A stretch of 35,077 nt of DNA from Clostridia bacterium (GTDB lineage: Bacteria; Bacillota; Clostridia; Oscillospirales; CAG-272): assembly GCA_017456145.1 (NCBI GenBank), contig JAFTJZ010000056.1, positions 1 through 35,077 on the forward strand. The letters are read 5' to 3'. The position numbers and the translations under genes are program-made. The notes under the pieces are model-generated. The model ran no database searches. It was given only the letters and a program-made list of their open reading frames with translations, and was not told the DNA's origin. Below, one piece after another: positions 2,524-34,294 of the stretch. The stretch's first letter is position 1; every line of letters begins with the position of its first letter.

Positions 2524-2541
2524 TGCTCTCGGAGTGAAATG

Positions 2542-3327
2542 ATGTATACGAAAGATTATTTGATCCGCCAGATCAAAGCAATGGGAATTTTACCGAACGA
2601 TACCGTGCTGATCCACACCTCGATGCATGCCGTCGGACATCTTGAGAACGGAGCTGACGATGTGATCGATGCCTTTCTCGAATGCCTTGATGAAGGATTG
2701 TTTCTGGTGCCGACACATACATGGGCAAGTGTCGGTGCCAATCAGCCTGTCTACGATGTCAGAACCACCGTTCCGTGCATCGGTACACTCCCACGCGTTG
2801 CCGCCTTTCGCAAGGATGGCGTGCGCTCGCTGCATCCCACGCATTCCATCTGGGCAAGTGGAATCGGTGCTGAAGATTTTATTAAAAATGAGGAAAACGC
2901 CCCCACACCCGGTTATCCCGGGTTCGCTTGGGAAAAGCTTGGAAGGATCGGTGCAAAAATTCTTTTGATCGGTGTCGGAAATGACAAAAATACGTTTATC
3001 CACGCCGTTGAGGAGCTTGCGGATATTCCGGATCGCTTGCGAAAGGATCCGTACAAGGTCACCATCTACGATCAGAACGGTAACTGCTCAAGCCACCTGT
3101 TTTCCGGACATTATTGCAGTCGATCAAAAGATGTTTCCGCACAATTTGTCAACTTCGAAAAGCCTTTGATCGAGCTCGGCGCACAGACCTTTGGACAGCT
3201 TGGCGACGCAACCGTCCGCATTGTCGATGCAAGAGCGTGTCGTGATATCATTCTGAAAATATGTTCTCGCGCCGATCGTGATCTTTGCATCGAGCGCATG
3301 GATATCCCGCGAGAATGGTACATCTGA
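2542..3327 (+). CDS. AAC(3)/YokD-family N-acetyltransferase
   Basis: A member of the antibiotic N-acetyltransferase fold, which moves acetyl groups from acetyl-CoA to amines such as the 3-amino group of aminoglycosides. Family signatures are HTSMHAVGHLENGADDVIDAF near the N-terminus, GTLPRVAAFRKDGVRSLHPTHS near residues 80-103, and LLIGVGNDKNTFIHAVEE in the second half. About 261 residues is normal. Two adjacent ATGs exist (2539 and 2542). The second is preferred because GGAG (2531-2534) is then 7 nt away instead of 4. The gene follows dxs by about 18 nt and ends at a hairpin. Housekeeping placement and the lack of any mobile element argue against an acquired resistance gene; the real substrate is unknown. 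Confidence 0.85.
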   Translation: MYTKDYLIRQIKAMGILPNDTVLIHTSMHAVGHLENGADDVIDAFLECLDEGLFLVPTHTWASVGANQPVYDVRTTVPCIGTLPRVAAFRKDGVRSLHPTHSIWASGIGAEDFIKNEENAPTPGYPGFAWEKLGRIGAKILLIGVGNDKNTFIHAVEELADIPDRLRKDPYKVTIYDQNGNCSSHLFSGHYCSRSKDVSAQFVNFEKPLIELGAQTFGQLGDATVRIVDARACRDIILKICSRADRDLCIERMDIPREWYI

Positions 3328-26562: not shown

Positions 26563-26564
26563 AA

Positions 26565-26823
26565 GTGTGGCTATAAAAATAGAGCGAACAGCGTGTAGCC
26601 ACACGGGATTTCGCTACGCAAAATCCCACCGAAGTCAGCATAACCTCAATCTTTTCAGTGTGGCTACATAAATAGAGCGAACAGAGCGTAGCCACACGGG
26701 ATTTCGCTGCGCAAAATCCCACCGAAGTCAGCATAACCTCAATCTTTTCAGTGTGGCTACATAAATAGAGCGAACAGAGCGTAGCCACACGGGATTTCGC
26801 TGCGCAAAATCCCACCGAAGTCA
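26565..26823 (+). repeat. Three tandem 93-bp palindromic repeats in the mannosidase leader
   Basis: Units start at 26565, 26658 and 26751; the third lacks the last ~20 bp. Each holds an outer inverted repeat, GTGTGGCTA(C) with (G)TAGCCACAC, about 40 bp across, then a hairpin GGGATTT-9-AAATCCC, then ACCGAAGTCA and a linker. GCGTAGC with GCTGCGC or GCTACGC offers an alternative pairing that would break both hairpins. Units 2 and 3 are identical over the shared part; unit 1 differs at about ten positions. A relative lies at 33654-33741. There is no transposase; the family looks like a MITE/REP-type or structured-RNA element. Confidence 0.92.
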
Positions 26824-29409: not shown

Positions 29410-29440
29410 GATCCCGTTGATCTTTTCGACGGGATCTTTT
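29410..29440 (+). terminator. Terminator after beta-mannosidase
   Basis: GATCCCGT (29410-29417) pairs perfectly with ACGGGATC (29429-29436), followed by TTTT. Confidence 0.85.
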
Positions 29441-29475: not shown

Positions 29476-29504
29476 TTGACAATCGCGGAATTATATGGTA
29501 TAAT
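29476..29504 (+). promoter_or_regulatory. Consensus sigmaA promoter of tetR and the aldehyde operon
   Basis: TTGACA (29476-29481), 17-nt spacer and TATAAT (29499-29504): both hexamers are perfect, with a TGG before the -10. Operator 1 begins 3 bp downstream, over the predicted transcription start. A promoter this strong implies tight repression. Confidence 0.93.
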
Positions 29505-29507
29505 ACT

Positions 29508-29526
29508 TCAGCACACAGTGTGCCGA
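29508..29526. promoter_or_regulatory. TetR operator 1 (over the transcription start)
   Basis: TCAGCACACAGTGTGCCGA is a 19-bp near-palindrome with one symmetry break. It is placed to block RNA polymerase at the tetR promoter. Confidence 0.85.
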
Positions 29527-29544
29527 CAAGACGGAGGTGGCATG

Positions 29545-30123
29545 ATGAGCGCTAACACGCAAGCATTGATCAGCGATGATATGTCAAGAAGAATCATTGA
29601 AACTGCCGAAGGCATCGCCATCGCCCAGGGCGCCGAGAGCGTGACCGTGCGCAAGATTCTTCAAACACTCGGAATCACCAATCGTGTATTTTACAATCGT
29701 TTTCGTAATATCAATGAGGTTTTGAATATTGTTTATGAATCCATGATCCTTAAAATCAGGGAGAGCATCACCGCAAATTTTGATCCCTCTGGAGACTTTA
29801 TCTCACAGGTGATCGACATTGTGGCGGACACATTGCTTATTTCTTATGATACAAAAATGAGGTTCAGCCACTATGTTTTCGAAAATGACTCTGTGTCATC
29901 ACAGAACTACGCTTGGTGGAAAGCAGAAATTTCAAAGCTGATCGAGTTTGGAAAGGAACACGGCATTCTGAAGGATGTCGATACCGAGATCATGAGCTAT
30001 GCGATCTGGTGCTTTATTCGTGGTTACAATGCCGATGCGCTCGGCCGCAAGCTTCCAAAGGAACAAGCGGTTGCTGCGTTCAAATATTCGTTCGGCATTT
30101 TGCTTGACGGCATGAAGGCATGA
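29545..30123 (+). CDS. TetR/AcrR-family transcriptional repressor
   Basis: A 192-residue regulator. The N-terminal helix-turn-helix spans about residues 10-58 (MSRRIIETAEGIAIAQGAES, VRKILQTLGITNRVFYNRF), with the family ending YNRFRNINEVLN. The helical C-terminal part is the ligand-binding and dimerization domain. The start at 29545 is preferred over 29542 because GGAGGT (29533-29538) is then 6 nt away. One operator overlaps its promoter and two identical ones precede the dehydrogenase gene, so it is very probably autoregulated and controls the downstream operon. From the operon content, the inferred inducer is a fatty aldehyde, fatty acyl-CoA or lysoplasmalogen. Confidence 0.92.
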   Translation: MSANTQALISDDMSRRIIETAEGIAIAQGAESVTVRKILQTLGITNRVFYNRFRNINEVLNIVYESMILKIRESITANFDPSGDFISQVIDIVADTLLISYDTKMRFSHYVFENDSVSSQNYAWWKAEISKLIEFGKEHGILKDVDTEIMSYAIWCFIRGYNADALGRKLPKEQAVAAFKYSFGILLDGMKA

Positions 30124-30175
30124 ATATTTATCGCATCAAGATAGAACGGGAGGTCAACTTCCGTTCAAATCTCAC

Positions 30176-30194
30176 TCAGCACACAGTGTGCTGA
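30176..30194. promoter_or_regulatory. TetR operator 2 (tetR-ADH intergenic)
   Basis: TCAGCACACAGTGTGCTGA, a perfect 19-bp palindrome centred on A, 53 bp after the tetR stop. Confidence 0.88.
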
Positions 30195-30240
30195 AATTTG
30201 TCGAAACCCATCGGAGCGCTCAATGCTCCGAAAAAATACA

Positions 30241-30257
30241 CAGCACACAGTGTGCTG
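30241..30257. promoter_or_regulatory. TetR operator 3 (just before ADH start)
   Basis: CAGCACACAGTGTGCTG, a perfect 17-bp palindrome 64 bp downstream of operator 2, about six helical turns, and only 12 bp before the ADH start codon. No clear promoter lies between operators 2 and 3, so readthrough from the tetR promoter is likely. Confidence 0.88.
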
Positions 30258-30269
30258 AAAGGAAGAGAT

Positions 30270-31481
30270 ATGAATCCAATTTACAAACTTTATTGTCGCA
30301 CGTTTCAGAAGGTCTTTCACCTCGCCATTCCCATTTTACCATATCGAAACCCGAAGATTCTGCGCAGTGTCTCCGAAGTTCCTTCACAGCTTAGGGAAAA
30401 GCAGGTCAAAAGCGTTCTGATCGTCACCGACAAGGTCCTGCATTCTCTCGGAATGATCGACGGCTTGAAGGAACAACTGAAAAAAAACGGAGTATCCTAC
30501 CATATCTACGACAGCACCGTACCCAACCCTACGGTTGACAATGTCGAGCAGGCCCGCGCACTTTATCTTGAAAACGGCTGTCAAGCTCTGATCGGGTTTG
30601 GTGGCGGCTCTGCCATTGATTGCGCCAAGGCTGTCGGTGCCCGTATTGCAAGGCCAAACAAGCCAATTGCAAAAATGGGTGGTATTCTCAAGGTCATGCA
30701 TAAGATTCCCTTGCTTATCGCCATCCCGACGACAGCCGGGACGGGAAGTGAAGTGACGGTCGCGACTGTGATCACTGATGCGAAGACCGGTCGCAAGTCA
30801 CCCATCAGCGACTTTCCGCTCATTCCTCGCGTTGCAGTTCTTGATGCGGAAAATACCAAAACTATGCCGCTCTCCATGACTTCTACCACAGGAATGGACG
30901 CACTGACCCACGCGGTCGAGGCCTATATCGGGCGCTCAACAACACGCTCTACCAGAAAAGATGCTACCGATGCCGTTCGTCTGATCTTTGAAAACCTCGA
31001 AAAGGCATATCAGGACGGTCAGAACACCCTTGCCAGAGCCAATATGATGCAAGCATCCTTTTTGGCAGGCAGAGCGTTTTCCAAATCTTACGTGGGGTAT
31101 GTTCATGCAGTAGCTCATTCACTGGGCGGCCAATATAATATCCCACATGGACTTGCCAACGCCGTACTATTGCCTATCGTTCTTGAGGCATATGGAAAGA
31201 GCGCCCATAAAAAGCTGCACGAGCTCGCCATTGTTGTCGGCCTCGCCACAAAGCAGGATTCAGCCGAAGACGGCGCTGCACGCTTTATCGCGGCTGTCCG
31301 AAATATGAATGCTCGCATGAATATTCCCAAAACCCTGTCGGGTATTATGAAAGAGGATATTCCAAAGATGGCAAAGCACGCCGCAAAAGAGGCAAACCCC
31401 CTCTATCCCGTTCCGATGCTGATGGATGCCAAGGCACTGGAACCATTTTATGAAAAAGTAGCAGATTGGAGTAACACATGA
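30270..31481 (+). CDS. Iron-containing alcohol dehydrogenase (group III)
   Basis: A 403-residue NAD(P)-dependent dehydrogenase of the Fe-ADH family that interconverts alcohols and aldehydes. The nucleotide-binding motif is GFGGGSAIDCAKAVGA (near residue 108), and IAIPTTAGTGSEVT near 150 is strongly conserved. Metal ligands are the Asp of TTGMDALTHAVEAY and the histidines of YVHAVAHSLGGQYNIPHGLANA. The ATG at 30270 is set by AAAGGAAG 4-5 nt upstream; a longer frame from 30198 would run through operator 3. The stop overlaps the next start as ATGA (31478-31481). In this operon the likely substrate is a long-chain aldehyde, reduced to an alcohol. Cytoplasmic. Confidence 0.93.
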   Translation: MNPIYKLYCRTFQKVFHLAIPILPYRNPKILRSVSEVPSQLREKQVKSVLIVTDKVLHSLGMIDGLKEQLKKNGVSYHIYDSTVPNPTVDNVEQARALYLENGCQALIGFGGGSAIDCAKAVGARIARPNKPIAKMGGILKVMHKIPLLIAIPTTAGTGSEVTVATVITDAKTGRKSPISDFPLIPRVAVLDAENTKTMPLSMTSTTGMDALTHAVEAYIGRSTTRSTRKDATDAVRLIFENLEKAYQDGQNTLARANMMQASFLAGRAFSKSYVGYVHAVAHSLGGQYNIPHGLANAVLLPIVLEAYGKSAHKKLHELAIVVGLATKQDSAEDGAARFIAAVRNMNARMNIPKTLSGIMKEDIPKMAKHAAKEANPLYPVPMLMDAKALEPFYEKVADWSNT

Positions 31482-32860
31482 GCACACAGAACATTGACAC
31501 CATCCTTGAATCACAGAAAAAATTCTTTGCAAGTGGCGCGACCTTACCGATATCCTTCAGAATCGAAATGCTGAAAAGGCTGTACAACAGCGTAAAGAAA
31601 CACGAAACAGAGATCGAGGCGGCACTGACAGCCGATCTTGGAAAAAGTGCCTTTGAGGGCTTTATGTGTGAGGTCGGACTGGTTCTCTCGGAGATCTCGT
31701 ATATGATCAAGCACACACGCCGTTTTGCTAAAAATCACCGTGTGAGCACCCCTTTGGCACAGTTTGCTTCTTCCAGTTATAAAAAACCCTCGCCGCATGG
31801 CAACACGTTGATCATGAGTCCTTGGAATTATCCCTTCCTTCTGACGCTCGATCCGCTCGCCGATGCCATCGCAGCAGGGAATACCGCCATTGTCAAGCCC
31901 AGCGCTTATTCTCCTGCGACGAGTGCGGCCATTGCTAAGTTGATCGCCGAATGTTTCCCGAGTGAATATGTGGCTGTGATCACGGGCGGTCGCGCAGAGA
32001 ATGCGGCTCTGTTGGAAAAGAAATTTGATTTTGTCTTTTTCACGGGCAGTCAGAATGTCGGCAAGGAGGTTCTTCGCCACACTGCAAAGACGCTCACCCC
32101 CGCGGTTCTTGAGCTTGGCGGTAAGAGCCCCTGCATCGTGGACAGCACGGCAAAGATCAAGCTCGCAGCAAAGCGCATTGTTTTCGGCAAATATCTGAAC
32201 TGCGGGCAAACCTGCGTTGCTCCGGATTATATTCTTTGTGAAAAGTCGGTCAAGGACGCGCTGGTCAAAGAGCTTAAAGTCCAGATTTGCCTTCAATACG
32301 GGGAAGAGCCTCTGAAGAATGTGGATTATGGGCGTATTGTCAACGAAAAGCATTTTGACCGTCTCCGCGGACTGATCGATGAAAATAAGGTTGTCATCGG
32401 CGGCACTTATAACAGAGATACCCTGCAGATCGCTCCGACAGTGATGGATAACGTCACGTGGGATGACGCCGTCATGGGGGAAGAGATCTTCGGTCCTGTA
32501 CTTCCCATTCTCACCTACGATCGGTTTGACGATATTTTCACACTGCTGCATGGGAAACAAAAGCCACTGGCGCTGTATTTGTTCTCTGAGAACAAGCGAC
32601 ACATCAAAGAGGTCACCGAGCGGCTCTCCTACGGAGGTGGCTGCATCAACGATGTTGTCATCCACCTTGCAACCAGTGAAATGGGCTTTGGCGGTGTCGG
32701 TGAGAGCGGAATGGGCAGTTATCACGGAAAAGAAGGCTTTGACGCTTTCTCGCATACCAAGAGCATCGTCGATAAAAAAACCTGGATGGATCTCCCCATG
32801 CGATATCAACCGTATAATAAAGGGCTGTATGGCGCGCTGCTCCACATCTTTTTGAGGTGA
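31478..32860 (+). CDS. Class 3-like aldehyde dehydrogenase
   Basis: A 460-residue NAD(P)-dependent aldehyde dehydrogenase of the class 3 type, a group known for fatty and aromatic aldehydes, oxidising them to acids. Marks are ILMSPWNYPF-like sequence (LIMSPWNYPFLLTLDPLADA), VFFTGSQNVGKEV, the general-base Glu of LELGGKSPCIVD, the catalytic Cys of NCGQTCVAPDY, EEIFGPVLPI and SGMGSYHGKEGFDAFSH. The C-terminus is amphipathic (YQPYNKGLYGALLHIFLR), which may bring the enzyme to the membrane where fatty aldehydes are released. It overlaps the ADH gene by 4 nt and is 6 nt before the lysoplasmalogenase gene. Confidence 0.94.
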   Translation: MSTQNIDTILESQKKFFASGATLPISFRIEMLKRLYNSVKKHETEIEAALTADLGKSAFEGFMCEVGLVLSEISYMIKHTRRFAKNHRVSTPLAQFASSSYKKPSPHGNTLIMSPWNYPFLLTLDPLADAIAAGNTAIVKPSAYSPATSAAIAKLIAECFPSEYVAVITGGRAENAALLEKKFDFVFFTGSQNVGKEVLRHTAKTLTPAVLELGGKSPCIVDSTAKIKLAAKRIVFGKYLNCGQTCVAPDYILCEKSVKDALVKELKVQICLQYGEEPLKNVDYGRIVNEKHFDRLRGLIDENKVVIGGTYNRDTLQIAPTVMDNVTWDDAVMGEEIFGPVLPILTYDRFDDIFTLLHGKQKPLALYLFSENKRHIKEVTERLSYGGGCINDVVIHLATSEMGFGGVGESGMGSYHGKEGFDAFSHTKSIVDKKTWMDLPMRYQPYNKGLYGALLHIFLR

Positions 32861-32866
32861 GATATT

Positions 32867-33565
32867 ATGGCAAAAAAACAAAAAATACTGTTGGGTATCA
32901 ATCTTGTCCTCGCATCCTTGGTTTTTGTTGGAAATTATTTTTACCTGACTGAAGGCGGTCTTACACTCAAAGCGGCTTGCAGCAGCGGTTTTGCGCTGAT
33001 GGGATTGATCAATCTCATATACGCCCTCGCAATCAAGGCCGAAAATCTCAAGTTCAACGTATCCATGGCAACGGGACTCGTTTTCGCTTGCCTTGGTGAT
33101 ATCGTTCTTGGCTTTGATTTTATCATCGGTGCCGCGCTATTTGCCATCGGACATATTTGCTACTTCATCTCCTACTGCATGCTGCAAAGGATCGTTCGTC
33201 GCGATTTTCTCATTGGCGGTATTCTTTTTGTCCTGGCAGGTGGGTTTGTATTGTTTTGTCCGCTTTTGGAGTTCCCCGAGCAAATCATGCAGATCGTCTG
33301 CTTGGTATATGCACTGATCATATCCATGATGCTCGGAAAAGCGATTTCTAATTTTTATGCTACAAAAACGATCCTGACAACCGTGATCCTTGTGGGGAGT
33401 GTGCTGTTTTTCTTCTCGGATCTCATGCTGGTATTTGATTGGTTCATGGGCATGGGCAAAATTGCAGGTAGACTCTGCATGGGAACCTATTATCCCGCCG
33501 AGTGTCTTCTCGGGTTATCTGCGTGTCTTCACGTCCTTTGCGGCAGCAGACGCAACAAAAAGTAA
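32867..33565 (+). CDS. YhhN-family protein, likely lysoplasmalogenase
   Basis: A 232-residue membrane protein with about eight hydrophobic segments, of the YhhN/TMEM86 family. Family members split the vinyl ether of lysoplasmalogens into a fatty aldehyde and a glycerophospho head group. Supporting segments are MATGLVFACLGDIVLGFDFIIGAALFAIGHICYF with the conserved GD and H residues, and LFFFSDLMLVFDWF near the end with the conserved S-D. It follows the aldehyde dehydrogenase by 6 nt. The released aldehyde is the logical substrate of the two dehydrogenases ahead of it. Plasmalogens are common in anaerobic Clostridia. A strong hairpin ends the operon. Confidence 0.85.
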   Translation: MAKKQKILLGINLVLASLVFVGNYFYLTEGGLTLKAACSSGFALMGLINLIYALAIKAENLKFNVSMATGLVFACLGDIVLGFDFIIGAALFAIGHICYFISYCMLQRIVRRDFLIGGILFVLAGGFVLFCPLLEFPEQIMQIVCLVYALIISMMLGKAISNFYATKTILTTVILVGSVLFFFSDLMLVFDWFMGMGKIAGRLCMGTYYPAECLLGLSACLHVLCGSRRNKK

Positions 33566-33573
33566 TTTTTTTG

Positions 33574-33609
33574 ATAAAGATGTTCTTTTGAAGGGCATCT
33601 TTATTTTTT
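33574..33609 (+). terminator. Terminator of the aldehyde operon
   Basis: ATAAAGATG (33574-33582) pairs perfectly with CATCTTTAT (33596-33604), followed by a T run to 33609. Confidence 0.85.
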
Positions 33610-33622
33610 ATCAGGAAAATTC

Positions 33623-33651
33623 TTGCACATTCGATCACTTTATGATATAAT
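33623..33651 (+). promoter_or_regulatory. SigmaA promoter of the PNPOx-kinase pair, fused to a repeat
   Basis: TTGCAC (33623-33628), 17-nt spacer and TATAAT (33646-33651) with extended -10 TGA. As at the mannosidase gene, TATGATATAATAAGTGTGGCT runs straight from the -10 into the repeat. Confidence 0.75.
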
Positions 33652-33653
33652 AA

Positions 33654-33741
33654 GTGTGGCTGTATAATAAGTGTGGCTATATAATTAGTGCGGCTATATA
33701 ATTAGTGCAAACAAAGCGTAGCCACACGGGATTTCGCTACG
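33654..33741 (+). repeat. Second, rearranged copy of the GTGTGGCT repeat
   Basis: Four 17-bp steps begin at 33654, 33671, 33688 and 33705 (GTGTGGCT, GTGTGGCT, GTGCGGCT, GTGCAAAC). The first three are followed by (T)ATATAAT-like tracts. The right arm TAGCCACAC (33719-33727) and GGGATTTCGCTACG close the element as in the 26565-26823 copies, but the second hairpin is degraded. The extra left arms allow alternative pairings with the single right arm, and each carries a -10-like TATAAT. Confidence 0.85.
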
Positions 33742-33817
33742 TTAAATTTCCAAAACATGATATATTTTGATTATTTTGCGCAAGCTCATATTAAAATCCG
33801 AGTACGGAGGCAATAAA

Positions 33818-34294
33818 ATGTTTCGAGAATTGACCCGAATAAACAAAAAGATCACACTGAATGAGGCGATCGCTGTACTTCAAAAGGAAACGCGAGGGGT
33901 TCTCTCTGTGAACGGGGATGACGGCTACCCATACGGTATGCCGATGAACCATTATTATCACAGTGAAGACGGATGCATTTATTTTCACTGCGGCAAAGGA
34001 GGACACCGCATGGATGCCATTCGATCCTCTGACAAAGTATCCTTCTGCGTATACGATGCGGGATATCGCGTTGACGACGATTGGGCGCTGAACGTAAAAA
34101 GCGTCATTGTCTTCGGGCGGATCGAGGTCATCGATGACATGGCGCAGATCATACCTATCACGACGGCATTATCTCATAAATTCACCCTGGATGATGCCTA
34201 TATTCGTCAGGAAATCGAATCGTATGCCAAGAGTACACTTTTGCTCAAGCTGACCCCCGAGCATATTTGCGGAAAGCTCGTCAAAGAGTCGTAA
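33818..34294 (+). CDS. Pyridoxamine 5'-phosphate oxidase-fold flavoprotein (NimA-like)
   Basis: A 158-residue split-barrel flavin-binding protein of the PNPOx-like/NimA group. NimA-type members reduce nitroimidazoles; most relatives have unknown substrates. The pattern is RGVLSVNGDDGYPYGMPMNHYYHSEDG, then IYFHCGKGGHRMDAIRSSDKVSFCVYD, and VIVFGRIEVIDD, all typical. The start at 33818 is set by GGAGG 7 nt upstream; the frame is open to 33767 without support. It is followed after 10 nt by the kinase gene. The transcript is predicted to begin in the repeat at 33654, giving a leader of about 160 nt. Confidence 0.88.
   Translation: MFRELTRINKKITLNEAIAVLQKETRGVLSVNGDDGYPYGMPMNHYYHSEDGCIYFHCGKGGHRMDAIRSSDKVSFCVYDAGYRVDDDWALNVKSVIVFGRIEVIDDMAQIIPITTALSHKFTLDDAYIRQEIESYAKSTLLLKLTPEHICGKLVKES

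Follow-up and report, generated by a model that had tools for sequence, protein, structure and literature searches.

An operon recurring across Clostridia joins a predicted lysoplasmalogenase to two dehydrogenases that may handle its fatty aldehyde

What becomes of lysoplasmalogens in bacteria, and of the aldehyde released from them by YhhN, has been little described. An operon in a 35,077-nucleotide stretch of Clostridia bacterium DNA, hereafter the window (contig JAFTJZ010000056.1 of assembly GCA_017456145.1; GTDB Oscillospirales, CAG-272), raises the question of whether one gene set could deal with both. Four genes, encoding a TetR-family regulator (tetR), an iron-type alcohol dehydrogenase (ADH; adh), a class 3 aldehyde dehydrogenase (ALDH; aldh), and a YhhN-family membrane protein (yhhN), form one unit that runs from a promoter to a terminator-like hairpin, as delimited by sequence scans of the window. 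We consider it somewhat likely that the unit, taken as a whole, is a regulated module salvaging the alkenyl chain of lysoplasmalogens, and we are appreciably more confident of the aldehyde step by itself, in which fatty aldehyde from YhhN would be handled by the dehydrogenases. Aldehyde disposal is a safer core claim than fatty-acid salvage. A widespread operon of YhhN and two dehydrogenases, sometimes with a DegV-family fatty-acid-binding protein, presents a concrete and testable pathway, with a possible nutrient link from host or dietary ether lipids to gut bacteria seemingly unable to make fatty acids. The features of the operon and its upstream boundary are as follows.

29410..29436, + strand: terminator-like hairpin 3' of the upstream GH2 gene (consensus scan only)
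29476..29504, + strand: promoter TTGACA-N17-TATAAT with TG 5' of the -10 hexamer (12 of 12 consensus matches)
29509..29525, + strand: operator 1, on the expected transcription start (one mismatch to the 17-mer)
29542..30123, + strand: tetR, TetR-family regulator, 193 amino acids (PF00440, 25.2 bits, cut-off 24)
30177..30193, + strand: operator 2, between tetR and adh (exact 17-mer)
30241..30257, + strand: operator 3, 64 bp from operator 2 and 12 nt 5' of the adh ATG (exact 17-mer)
30270..31481, + strand: adh, iron-type ADH, 403 amino acids (Pfam Fe-ADH; putative metal ligands D210, H214, H279, and H293)
31478..32860, + strand: aldh, class 3 ALDH, 460 amino acids (Pfam Aldedh; C246, E212, and N117 in family motifs)
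32867..33565, + strand: yhhN, lysoplasmalogenase-family membrane protein, 232 amino acids (Pfam YhhN; K35, G77, D78, H96, G177, S184, D185, and Y208)
33573..33605, + strand: terminator-like hairpin closing the operon (consensus scan only)

The gene layout described in an earlier note on this DNA was confirmed: tetR, adh, aldh, and yhhN stand in tight order with three palindromes, the adh stop and the aldh start overlap as ATGA, and 6 nt separate aldh from yhhN. The hairpin at 29410-29436 bounds the operon upstream, separating it from the GH2 gene, and the 3' edge of the promoter lies 4 bp upstream of operator 1. Promoter and terminator assignments are consensus matches only; over the scanned stretch there were 11 promoter-like sites versus 5.1 expected in shuffles, among which the 12-of-12 match was unique, and 6 terminator-like sites versus 4.8 expected. 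Two TTG frames were rejected as gene starts: the TTG at 29476, a candidate start for tetR, is the -35 box, and the frame at 30198, a candidate start for adh, begins upstream of the position, matching 30270, at which relatives start.

Chance juxtaposition of the operon genes was ruled out by their conservation across YhhN loci. Relatives of five YhhN proteins were sought in one genome per species, yielding 127 confirmed loci, and the best 80 of these were used; most lay in metagenome-assembled genomes labelled Clostridia, Oscillospiraceae, Lachnospiraceae, or Christensenella; for 31 of the 80 (hand count), the title names a sample from the colon, caecum, or rectum. ADH and ALDH matches were found by tblastn on the same strand and within 5 kb of YhhN at 49 of the 80 loci (pieces below 60 bits were dropped, as were neighbours below 100 bits), and the order was adh-aldh-yhhN at 48 of these 49, L076 being the exception. 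Among the other loci, 7 had ALDH only, 4 had ADH only, and 20 had neither. The YhhN match began no more than 60 bp from the end of the ALDH match in 27 of the 48 collinear sets. Cluster c0 missed YhhN in L025, L029, L040, and L076, and the counts were therefore taken from tblastn; L020, L026, and L033 share their contigs with the G021, G017, and G144 loci. The protein distances of ADH, ALDH, and YhhN were correlated across 44 complete sets (Spearman 0.71-0.76, versus a maximum of 0.19 in 500 permutations), and the three enzymes therefore travel together. These sets comprised the window and 43 of the 49 two-dehydrogenase loci, short or cluster-split open reading frames having been dropped and L013 omitted as a duplicate of L020 on the same contig. 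The proposal in the earlier note had been staked on conservation of the gene set beyond this genome, and the same order of the three enzyme genes at 48 of the 80 loci supplies it.

The window's YhhN scored 91.9 bits against PF07947 (cut-off 25.6), the lysoplasmalogenase family of human TMEM86A/B and of the Legionella and mycobacterial YhhN proteins. According to the available text of a mutagenesis study of TMEM86A/B, eight proposed residues (K43, G81, D82, H104, G182, S189, D190, and Y213 in TMEM86A) were tested, and all were important except G81/G87 (PMC11994398). All eight are present in the window's YhhN when matched by motif and spacing, and the C-terminal spacing is also shared, with a G, an S-D 7 residues on, and a Y 23 after the D. 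In a 42-row alignment, a chosen half of the YhhN sequences at hand, K35, G77, D78, H96, S184, D185, and Y208 (TMEM86A K43, G81, D82, H104, S189, D190, and Y213) were invariant in all 42. These include six of the seven residues whose mutation is described in that text as cutting TMEM86A/B activity; the seventh, TMEM86A G182, corresponds to G177 in the window's protein and varies among relatives (conserved in <90%), and the invariant G77 corresponds to G81, described there as dispensable in the human enzymes. A sequence search for a solved relative gave none, only one chance match (E 0.22). The earlier naming of YhhN as a lysoplasmalogenase-family enzyme thus held up, with most lysoplasmalogenase residues retained, and this conservation supports, without proving, the same chemistry as in TMEM86. 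The window's gene, whose activity is a prediction, differs from these relatives in having two dehydrogenase genes as operon partners; neither "operon" nor "aldehyde dehydrogenase" appears in the available part of the mycobacterial YhhN paper (PMC9052158).

Among solved structures, those nearest to the ALDH belong to class 3: 6k0z, human ALDH3A1 (3sza), and human fatty aldehyde dehydrogenase (4qgk, E 1.6e-113). Together with the Cys, Glu, and Asn motifs at C246, E212, and N117, to which we presume the usual catalytic roles belong, these bear out the earlier assignment to the class that includes fatty aldehyde dehydrogenase. The operon enzyme differs from its class 3 relatives in that its nearest named NCBIfam model is benzaldehyde dehydrogenase, below cut-off. 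The ADH matched PF00465 and PF25137 and, when aligned to Alcohol dehydrogenase 2 (3owo), retained at D210, H214, H279, and H293 what we take to be the metal-ligand pattern of that enzyme. It shares this pattern with iron ADHs such as lactaldehyde reductase, 1,3-propanediol dehydrogenase, and ADH2, but it fell far under every NCBIfam equivalog cut-off among the matches listed, lactaldehyde reductase being the best. Among the matches listed, none of the four operon proteins reached an NCBIfam cut-off.

From these parts we infer the following scheme, including the direction of its redox steps. YhhN would hydrolyse the sn-1 vinyl ether of a lysoplasmalogen, giving a long-chain aldehyde and a glycerophospho-headgroup; the class 3 ALDH would use NAD(P)+ to oxidise this product to a fatty acid, and the iron ADH would use NADH to reduce part of it to a fatty alcohol, so that together they could dismute a toxic aldehyde with no net redox change. 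The fatty acid could then enter phospholipids through FakB/FakA. The aldehyde chemistry of YhhN, ALDH, and ADH appears likely because the catalytic residues of YhhN and the catalytic and metal residues of the two dehydrogenases are kept. The same two steps proposed here are known from mammals, in which fatty aldehyde dehydrogenase oxidises the aldehydes that plasmalogen breakdown yields and the resulting acids are reused (PMC9471318); in the bacterial version the genes would share an operon under a regulator of their own, with an iron ADH in addition. For YhhN in bacteria, protection and catabolism have been proposed in the available texts, in both cases for the single enzyme (PMC9052158, PMC9471318), and the words "degradation," "turnover," "catabolism," and "plasmalogenase" are all absent from the available main text of a review of bacterial plasmalogens (PMC9702350). 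No operon joining YhhN to two dehydrogenases was described in the titles and abstract openings listed by searches of the open-licence literature. All of the parts belong to known families; the novelty lies in how they are combined, in how widely the combination occurs, and in its possible connection to Fak.

Genes that could receive the acid were found in related operons. Eight DegV-family genes lay in or beside the operon at seven loci: L022, L024, L032 (where the gene is cut by the contig end), L044 (two copies), L058, L079, and L091; L020 and L059 have DegV-family genes further away. All eight exceeded the Pfam and NCBIfam DegV cut-offs and scored 59-136 bits against the FakB1 model, whose cut-off is 350. 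By eye, three or more sequence types can be told apart among them, which suggests repeated recruitment to these operons. A FakA-type kinase was present in 46 of 50 module genomes, including the window's own, and FabF, the marker for type II fatty acid synthesis (FASII), in 7 of 50. FabF had no match in the window's own genome (2.92 Mb, 117 contigs, 95.4% completeness, 7.5% estimated contamination), a type of assembly in which absences are soft; in control genomes, the FabF search matched 13 of 14 known cases, 9 of them over cut-off. FabF occurred in 139 of 245 genomes evenly drawn from the window's order (Fisher p 1.7e-8 versus module genomes), but the module genomes also come from other lineages and many are of about 1 Mb. 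FabH was rejected as a FASII marker, and FabF relied on, since FabH was over cut-off in 1 of 52 genomes and six of the seven FabF-positive module genomes were also without it. The route proposed here thus resembles the FakA/FakB route for exogenous fatty acids in its kinase and in the DegV genes at seven related operons, and differs in that the acid would derive from a vinyl-ether lipid via an aldehyde and in that the DegV genes are below the FakB1 cut-off and missing from the window's operon. Many carriers probably retain the acid via FakB/FakA. The earlier note did not mention these DegV/FakB-like partners, the scarcity of FabF in module genomes, or the swapping of regulators described below.

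The TetR protein carries the family's DNA-binding domain, and three sites match the palindrome CAGCACACAGTGTGCTG, the one at 29509 with 1 mismatch and those at 30177 and 30241 exactly, with 0.01 matches expected at up to 3 mismatches (100 shuffles); palindromes at its own promoter are as predicted for an autoregulated local repressor. A search of the whole 2.92-Mb genome with the 15-mer, allowing up to 2 mismatches, returned the three operon sites and two others, both within long open frames. The reversed 15-mer pattern gave 2 forward and 3 reverse matches in the same genome, and the two stray sites are background because this control yields as many. A wider TetR regulon was accordingly rejected, and, the stray sites being inside long frames, the regulator looks local. 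In the window's genome, TetR would repress its own promoter through operator 1 on the start site and would probably block or loop at operators 2 and 3 before adh, until an inducer, perhaps the lipid product as the earlier note proposed, released it. The 64-bp spacing of operators 2 and 3 corresponds to about six helical turns, and a consensus scan listed no promoter in between; the two operators would therefore act as a roadblock or loop on transcription already under way. Matches of TetR to solved structures, including DarR and a fatty acid metabolism regulator, were weak (E 1e-4 to 6e-4) and too weak to name the inducer. The earlier note had suggested looking for a tetR-ADH-ALDH-yhhN order in related genomes, and of this the adh-aldh-yhhN part is kept while TetR is confined to this locus: at none of the 80 YhhN loci did the window's TetR match anything at more than 60 bits. 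Elsewhere, a MarR-cluster gene lies within 1.5 kb upstream at 15 of the 48 collinear loci (one member confirmed by Pfam), and a LacI-family gene lies 5' of adh in one locus, L033.

Several observations weigh against a regulated salvage module. TetR is not conserved with adh-aldh-yhhN. Neither dehydrogenase was nearby at 20 of the 80 YhhN loci, and 12 of these 20 have 3.4 kb or more of sequence upstream, the other 8 having less. PF07947 occurred in 34 of the 245 genomes of the order draw, and only two of these 34 (the window's and G144) carry the dehydrogenases alongside, although several stretches end at contig ends; YhhN thus often works without the module, and a bare YhhN is no proxy for it. 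The operon in the window has no DegV gene of its own, and of the eight in or beside related operons, three (L022, L024, and the first of L044) reach only about 60 bits against the FakB1 model. Loss of FabF is frequent in the window's family in any case: FabF was present in 0 of 4 module carriers (G000, G017, G021, and G035, the G017 module being cut by a contig end) versus 20 of 56 others (p 0.29; absence 4 of 4 versus 36 of 56), a comparison in which the non-carriers include G340-G343, of unchecked YhhN status, and the FabF match of G024 is weak. Bare YhhN showed no link to FabF, which was present in 17 of 34 genomes with YhhN versus 122 of 211 without (hand count). The FASII link is confounded by lineage: the module occurs in FabF-poor genomes, and tracking of FASII loss cannot be asserted. 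Finally, PF09989, which we take to be a domain of PlsA-like plasmalogen synthases, if not exclusive to them, was found in 166 of the 245 genomes, and in 19 of 34 YhhN genomes versus 147 of 211 others (Fisher p 0.12, in the wrong direction); the two-by-two counts for YhhN, PF09989, and FabF were made by hand from listed positives, assuming the same 245 genomes.

That last result bears on whose lipid the module would consume. Turnover of the cell's own plasmalogen should be accompanied by plasmalogen synthase, and since the proxy does not track YhhN, such turnover is unsupported as a general role. Nor does the proxy follow the module: PF09989 was found in 27 of 49 module genomes, in a frame of at least 900 amino acids in 18, and had no match in 22. 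It is unlikely, in our judgment, that the module clears the cell's own lysoplasmalogen and its aldehyde after synthesis by PlsA/PlsR and sn-2 removal by a phospholipase A2, even though plasmalogens are known in anaerobic bacteria, as the available text of PMC9702350 has it, and the window's genome contains a PlsA/PlsR-like pair. This pair (L101 3150-7501; G000:C23) consists of a 1,017-amino-acid protein with PF09989 and a 433-amino-acid neighbor; NCBIfam recognised only an acyl-CoA dehydratase activase domain in the large protein and left the small one unnamed. It is a possible plasmalogen synthase, and own-lipid turnover is possible in the window's genome. For the module at large, foreign lysoplasmalogens are the likelier substrate, because the PlsA proxy has no link to YhhN and 31 of the 49 module genomes are without it at full length. 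The plasmalogen-turnover and fatty-aldehyde module put forward in the earlier note therefore survives in its conserved trio, its YhhN residues, and its ALDH class, and gives way where it implied the cell's own lipid as the general source.

If the lipid is foreign, the module might serve only to detoxify it, removing membrane-damaging lysoplasmalogens of host or dietary origin together with their aldehyde and discarding the acid and alcohol as waste. This is the strongest of the alternatives, though we still judge it fairly unlikely. It agrees with the protective role proposed, in the available texts, for mycobacterial and Legionella YhhN (PMC9052158, PMC9471318), and a dedicated repressor fits an inducible stress response; moreover, L053, L059, L075, and L097 have ADH and YhhN with no ALDH match in the 10 kb upstream, and a detoxification route there would make no fatty acid. 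Against this, the DegV/FakB-like genes of at least three types in related operons and the 43 of 50 module genomes without a FabF match both point to use of the acid. Less probable is that the dehydrogenases have some other substrate (a short-chain or aromatic aldehyde or alcohol, or one that is a fermentation product), with YhhN a passenger or acting on another lipid. Class 3 ALDHs are promiscuous, and the best NCBIfam matches of the pair are to lactaldehyde reductase and benzaldehyde dehydrogenase, both below cut-off; however, ADH, ALDH, and YhhN remain linked across broad divergence, their distances correlate, and YhhN lies within 60 bp of the ALDH match in over half of the collinear sets. 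Salvage of the alkenyl chain accommodates these data best in our view. Its strongest form, in which fatty-acid auxotrophic gut Firmicutes build their membranes partly from the vinyl-ether chains of lysoplasmalogens by means of YhhN, ALDH, FakB/FakA, and a dedicated repressor, the lipids coming from the host, the diet, or other microbes, is a speculation that we rate as rather doubtful.

The surroundings of the related loci showed further regularities. A thrS-like gene precedes the module in 14 of the 48 collinear loci (L048, L064, L066, L067, L072, L077, L080, L085, L087, L088, L092, L095, L098, and L099), and many of these modules are followed by infC- and rplT-like genes, i.e., they lie within a housekeeping translation cluster (names by inspection). 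Directly 3' of yhhN, 10 of the 48 loci (L041, L048, L066, L067, L077, L088, L091, L095, L098, and L099) have a Pr6Pr-cluster gene (one member checked), which overlaps yhhN in several loci and encodes a membrane protein of about 225 amino acids, a candidate further lipid enzyme; a literature search under the Pr6Pr name returned no paper. L032 and L034 each contain a choloylglycine-hydrolase/C45-type amide hydrolase; the two proteins exceed the Pfam CBAH cut-off, and only that of L032 exceeds the NCBIfam C45 cut-off. Aconitase X (AcnX) and a BilR/BaiCD-like enzyme cluster around YhhN in six loci from five genomes (L013 being on the same contig as L020); the BilR/BaiCD-like flavin enzyme and both aconitase X subunits occupy L013 6708-10534, L015 7627-11437, L034 2352-6149, and L043 3604-7404, and their position and orientation relative to YhhN or the module differ between genomes. 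In L051, L057, and L069, which have no dehydrogenases, a further TetR-family gene (one Pfam-checked) and transporter-like genes come after yhhN, giving another regulated YhhN setting.

Within the window, the operon and the GH2 gene before it are flanked by a 93-bp tandem repeat (2.8 copies, 26564-26823) and a 17-bp tandem repeat (33645-33740). The 93-bp repeat contains three copies of the element CGTAGCCACACGGGATTTCGC, one of them with a mismatch, and another copy stands just 3' of the 17-bp repeat; no copies are expected by chance, and the element resembles a small mobile element or an intergenic repeat. Downstream, 33812-34294 encodes a pyridoxamine-5'-phosphate-oxidase-like protein related to Nim-type nitroimidazole reductases, far under their cut-off, and at 2539-3327 a member of the aminoglycoside 3-N-acetyltransferase family (PF02522) adjoins a DXP synthase gene.

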